A stretch of DNA of 35,903 nucleotides from a virus: the IMG/VR virus record IMGVR_UViG_3300020196_000120, positions 1 to 35,903 of that record, one strand, 5' to 3'. The notes under the pieces were generated by a model that was given only the letters and a program-made list of their open reading frames with translations, searched no databases and had not been told where the DNA came from. The position numbers and the translations under genes were made by a program. Positions within the stretch are counted from its first letter, which is position 1, and each line of letters starts with the position of its first letter. Of this stretch, positions 15,364 to 15,403 are shown in pieces.

Positions 15364-15403
15364 AACCCCATTTTTTCTATTGATAAATAGTTTAAATGGG
15401 GTT
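15364..15403 (+). promoter_or_regulatory. Late promoter inside an RBS-sequestering hairpin (tube-like gene)
   Basis: AACCCCATTT (15364-15373) pairs perfectly with AAATGGGGTT (15394-15403) around a 20-base loop that contains GATAAATA (15382-15389). The GGGG of the 3' arm is the only Shine-Dalgarno-like sequence before the ATG at 15412. A late start a few bases after the octamer falls at the beginning of the 3' arm, so the late mRNA lacks the 5' arm. This repeats the architecture at gp13. Confidence 0.7.

Follow-up and report, generated by a model that had tools for sequence, protein, structure and literature searches.

A conserved hairpin around a late promoter before a tail tube-like gene of a jumbo-type phage, and its proposed role as a translational gate

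The 35,903-base IMG/VR virus record IMGVR_UViG_3300020196_000120 (positions 1 to 35,903, hereafter the window) comes from a T4-like myophage of the giant (jumbo) type that infects bacteria, and its sheath protein is nearest to those of jumbo phages such as Atu_ph07 and PA5oct. Between the tail tube gene (gp19) and a gene for a tube-like protein lies a hairpin that encloses a late promoter motif. The initial annotation described a perfect 10-bp stem, a 20-base loop with the promoter motif, and a single Shine-Dalgarno-like run, GGGG, in the 3' arm, all of which we confirmed in the letters. The structure exceeds this description, as an additional outer 9-bp arm extends to the start codon:

15353-15361, + strand: outer 5' arm, TATATAAGG, which pairs with 15406-15414
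15364-15373, + strand: inner 5' arm, AACCCCATTT; forms the perfect 10-bp stem with 15394-15403
15382-15389, + strand: late promoter motif, GATAAATA, in the 20-base loop
15394-15403, + strand: inner 3' arm, AAATGGGGTT, the perfect complement of AACCCCATTT, with the Shine-Dalgarno run and the presumed late start
15406-15414, + strand: outer 3' arm, CCTTATATG, with the start codon within it
15412-16833, + strand: tube-like gene, 473 amino acids, PHROGs tail tube families; the gene thought to be gated

GGGG (15398-15401) is the sole Shine-Dalgarno-like run ahead of the ATG at 15412, and both it and the AUG are paired in the 3' side of a stable helix; CTATT and AATAG could also pair across the promoter. 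The predicted promoter GATAAATA lies 22 nt 5' of the ATG, just ahead of the gene as in T4-type late promoters, and ATAAATA is the predicted late promoter of the related jumbo phages CBB and GAP32 (PMC5259590). In T4 late promoters, roughly one helical turn separates the TATA box from the start downstream of it (PMC2988020). With this spacing, late transcription would be expected to start near 15395, at position 2 of the 3' arm, much where the initial annotation had placed it. No Rfam family covers 15364, and a blastn search of the site against isolate phages gave 0 matches.

The fold is better than expected by chance. When both flanks were dinucleotide-shuffled with the promoter motif held fixed (12,000 controls), an equal or better fold arose in 4 of the 12,000 shuffles for the hairpin at 15382, and in 69 of the 12,000 for a similar site at gp13 (see below). 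The perfect stem by itself is not extraordinary (the window has five overlapping hits, at three distinct places, as compared to 0-4 in 20 shuffles), but its position is.

A search with the window's protein gave 38 related loci, and both promoter and hairpin are present in 9 of these, all from the same species and all identical across 15300-15480. Locus L179 (on the same contig as L185) was added through a DNA pattern scan; another hit of that scan, L178, was dropped because it lies within a reading frame. A second search, with the L179/L185 protein, returned 70 loci, whose leaders comprise 49 distinct sequences; some of their contigs also belong to the 38. Among the 49 leaders, a promoter motif at a usable distance is found only in L185 and in the leader common to L196, L197, L199, and L200, and the promoters of L185 and L196 both lie within significant hairpins (0 of 4000 shuffles each). 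(We did not count as promoters the motif at a gap of 4 in L019, or AATAAATA in L187 and L192, which overlaps the gp19 stop and is no more than about 10 nt from the ATG.) At the tube-like gene, a usable late promoter occurs in three lineages, always within such a hairpin, and the other relatives have neither. Separately, a hairpin at a 120-aa gene of L015 was convincing by eye but was rejected, as 704 of 4000 shuffles matched it.

Between the window and L185, 42 of the 43 bases of the element are kept; their tube-like proteins are identical at 299 of 467 amino acids (64%) and the third codon positions at 248 of 467 (53%). Overall, our results indicate that the hairpin design is kept by selection. 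In L196, where the gene order is the same and the tube-like protein has 46.5% identity to the window's in the aligned part, AAATCCTACTC and GAGTAGGATTT form the arms around CATAAATA; they are unrelated to the window's arms yet complementary. Exchanging arms between L196 and the window abolishes pairing (−20.6 kcal/mol with L196's own arms, −5.6 and −6.4 when swapped). A search with the L196 protein returned the same four contigs and nothing further. Because promoter and hairpin are jointly present in window/L185 and in L196, with unrelated arms, they were apparently acquired together, at least twice.

This is a genuine, conserved late-promoter hairpin, and we propose that it works in cis as a translational gate like that of T4 e (we put the probability at roughly 0.72). 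In RNA entering from upstream, 15353-15373 would pair with 15394-15414 and mask the Shine-Dalgarno run and the AUG, and the tube-like gene would hardly be translated from read-through RNA. Late RNA polymerase, in contrast, would initiate from GATAAATA, near 15395, to give an RNA that lacks the 5' arm and in which the ribosome site is open. Production of the tube-like protein would then depend on the gene's own late promoter rather than on read-through from gp18-gp19. Consistent with this, opening −17 to +3 is predicted to cost 25.0 kcal/mol with the full leader and 5.4 kcal/mol with the late-start leader. Computed alike, the cost falls from 15.1 to 1.4 kcal/mol for T4 e and from 13.6 to 0.4 kcal/mol for I-TevII.

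As a form of control, this is already known from T4, with e, soc, 49, and I-TevI as published precedents, and the tube-like gene would be a further case. The same logic applies to T4 e, soc, 49, I-TevI, I-TevII, I-TevIII, and segB and to mobE of Aeh1, mostly late genes on early or middle transcripts (PMC3014915, PMC2988022); the endonuclease genes among these share the arrangement of promoter and hairpin (PMC2988022). T4 e and I-TevII (T4 45638) were also recovered by our scan (see below). However, e, soc, and 49 are lysis, outer capsid, and recombination genes on early or middle transcripts, whereas here a tail gene directly follows late tail genes; and I-TevI, I-TevII, I-TevIII, segB, and mobE encode homing endonucleases, whereas the gene here is of virion type. 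A literature search, mostly without subscription papers, found no report of the design at gp13 or at the tail tube gene of jumbo phages.

PeSL cassettes of T4-type phages are small intergenic modules in which a sigma-70-type early promoter is followed by a stem-loop. The element resembles them as a small module of promoter and stem-loop between genes, but here a late promoter is in the loop and the ribosome site is in an arm. Also, sigma-70-like sites occur at the chance rate in 14500-17300 (14 found, 12.0 expected), and the one next to the stem is on the minus strand, so we do not consider this a PeSL cassette.

The same architecture is found at gp13, the neck gene, in environmental phages and in isolates as well as in the window:

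7639-7680, + strand: gp13-like hairpin, with GATAAATA at 7650-7657

The initial annotation regarded the hairpin at 15364 as a second copy of this element, which is apt for the architecture but not for the arms, as these are unrelated. Across 88 gp13 loci (57 distinct leaders), NATAAATA is present in every leader, and 39 of the 57 have hairpins with p < 0.05. In 61 of 70 leaders, the native arms pair more strongly than the median of arms taken from other leaders (mean −11.4 versus −6.0 kcal/mol). The median excess opening cost is 9.8 kcal/mol (n = 70), as compared to 2.3 at 50 other late promoters, although these were selected as not hairpin-significant, so that the contrast is partly built in. 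(For the arm-exchange, opening-cost, and T-tail analyses, the gp13 starts of L090, L097, L104, L116, and L118 were shifted 12 nt upstream; in one further gp13 analysis, only L090, L097, L104, and L116 were shifted.) Among 17 isolate records, picked from 58 with a match, TAAATA lies in a strong gp13 hairpin in 12 (GAP32, CBB, XbC2, Kaldavass, BF, PHA46, fENko-Kae01, XaC1, RaK2, Muenster, 121Q, and PBECO4), several of which are near-identical to one another and are not independent events. The other five (PA5oct, Atu_ph07, Vibrio phage 2.275.O, Phosso, and SCTP-2) have no clear gp13 hairpin.

In RaK2 (L135, 493) and 121Q (L137, 487), the annotated gp13 start codon is inside the hairpin. Because gp13 of their relatives Muenster and PBECO4 is annotated from an ATG 3' of the hairpin, the RaK2 and 121Q starts are probably too far upstream, and annotated start codons inside such hairpins should be viewed with caution. 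(In our arm-exchange and opening-cost sets, RaK2 and 121Q were cut at their annotated starts; they are within the 70 leaders but outside the 10 isolates used for T-tails.)

Several observations weigh against the gate. First, 29 of the 38 related loci lack promoter and hairpin at the tube-like gene (one of them, L019, has the motif 4 nt before the start), as do 47 of the 49 distinct leaders of the second search, and the tube-like gene is represented by one distinct sequence per lineage. Second, p < 0.02 is also reached at 7 of 177 ordinary gene starts that have no TAAATA motif, so the fold on its own is moderate evidence; also, 3 of the 177 reach −21 kcal/mol. Third, RNAalifold found no consensus structure and no pairs in the gp13 alignment; when pairs were counted directly, 46 cells were double-changed, as compared to 33.5 in shuffles (a value matched by 0 of 500), but the variety of pair types did not exceed that of shuffles (328 of 500 were at least as varied). 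Fourth, the upstream genes are themselves late genes, unlike in most of the T4 precedents.

Finally, the initial annotation took the two occurrences to suggest a recurring regulatory design, which is not supported as a general one. Of 56 late-promoter sites in four contigs, 6 have hairpins at p < 0.02, namely gp13 in all four and, in the window's species, the tube-like gene and an 83-aa virion-type gene. Without gp13, the rate is that of ordinary starts (2 of 52 versus 7 of 177, Fisher p 0.65), and we reject a genome-wide enrichment apart from gp13. For the window's species alone, it is 3 of 11 (p 0.014 against the same 7 of 177). The design does recur at gp13 and at the tube-like gene, with conservation and arm-specific pairing, but it is tied to individual genes. 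For T4, the threshold was reached at 6 of 31 sites; these include two promoters of e and the I-TevII site, and the rest are facing promoter pairs. The scan missed soc (15610) and 49 (46892), so it misses real cases.

The alternative that survives best, though we consider it unlikely, is that an intrinsic terminator is fused to the promoter: upstream transcripts would end at the hairpin and late ones, starting inside, could not form it, so control would be transcriptional. A T-rich tail does follow the 3' arm in 9 of 10 isolate gp13 leaders (but in only 5 of 58 environmental ones), L185 carries GGGGTTTACTTTTT at the tube-like gene, and in relatives the late promoter of the tube gene is directly preceded by a strong hairpin. 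At 15364, however, the stem is followed by TTTACCTTAT and not by the immediate T-run that, with a G+C-rich stem, marks an intrinsic terminator; a terminator scan (which allows loops of 3-8 only) called none; and the AUG itself is paired.

It is quite improbable that the hairpin is mainly a 3' stabilizer or processing site for abundant gp19 mRNA, with the overlap of promoter and ribosome site being incidental. The stem does begin 13 bases past the gp19 stop codon, but among relatives hairpin and promoter are either both present or both absent, and gp13 has a hairpin without a tube gene upstream. Similarly improbable is a palindrome that arose by chance or acts in DNA, with no role in RNA (a duplicated promoter cassette or facing promoters, such as the T4 facing late promoters that form similar palindromes, 26/51 and inh/segE), because, although the 5' half is duplicated at 16825-16894, the 3' arm is missing from that copy, the whole window has no NATAAATA on its minus strand, both arms are kept in L185, and L196 has unrelated complementary arms.

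If the hairpin is a translational gate, a related question is which messages it blocks. The genes just 5' of it each have their own late-type promoter:

10966-14634: sheath gene (gp18)
14701-15339: tail tube gene (gp19)

Given these promoters, the blocked messages would be mostly late read-through, and the earlier idea of leakage from early transcripts does not suit this site. Leakage from early or middle transcripts fits gp13 better, because a MazG-like gene sits two genes upstream of it. The gate may thus shield the tube-like gene from its own late operon. Tentatively, and with more doubt than for the gate itself, we suggest that abundant tail-tube mRNA enters the tube-like gene untranslated, so that the two tube proteins get separate stoichiometry; that the gate arose at least twice here (window/L185 and L196), each time with a new promoter; and that the gp13 gate is old and common to much of the jumbo T4-like phages, including GAP32, CBB, RaK2, and 121Q. 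The translational gate itself, if correct, extends a kind of control described for a few T4 genes to virion genes in a large and mainly environmental group of jumbo phages, and such leaders are predicted to be translated only when transcription starts inside the hairpin.

Two paralogous promoter regions flank the tube-like gene, and the second has the 5' half and the promoter without the 3' arm:

16825-16894, + strand: paralog of 15331-15403 that comprises the 5' half and the promoter, upstream of the 119-aa gene; no significant hairpin
16901-17260: 119-aa gene
17257-17694: head closure gene

The two copies align with a score of 80 (shuffle maximum 32 in 2000). We rejected the look-alike at 16875 (before 16901) as a third hairpin, since 4059 of 12,000 shuffles fold as well. 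Because L185 has the element before the tube-like gene and not before the next gene, the copy at 16875 appears to have arisen later, by duplication of the promoter half.

Other late promoters have hairpins nearby. In the window's species, upstream of the window on the minus strand (G001 38269), a hairpin-embedded GATAAATA precedes the gene for an 83-aa virion structural protein (phrog_11854). At the tail tube gene of relatives, a strong hairpin lies directly 5' of GATAAATA and is followed by an open ribosome site (L013 1087, L021 3194, L027 2949, L033 9299, and L015 1102). Finally, the cis-regulatory freshwater-2 RNA of Rfam (RF02980) resembles a 5' leader of late phage mRNA, because it begins 9-10 nt past a GATAAATA late promoter in 6 of the 6 copies found:

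window 11-103
G001 28170-28262
G005 71618-71711 and 73350-73444
G006 40408-40499
G008 64490-64584
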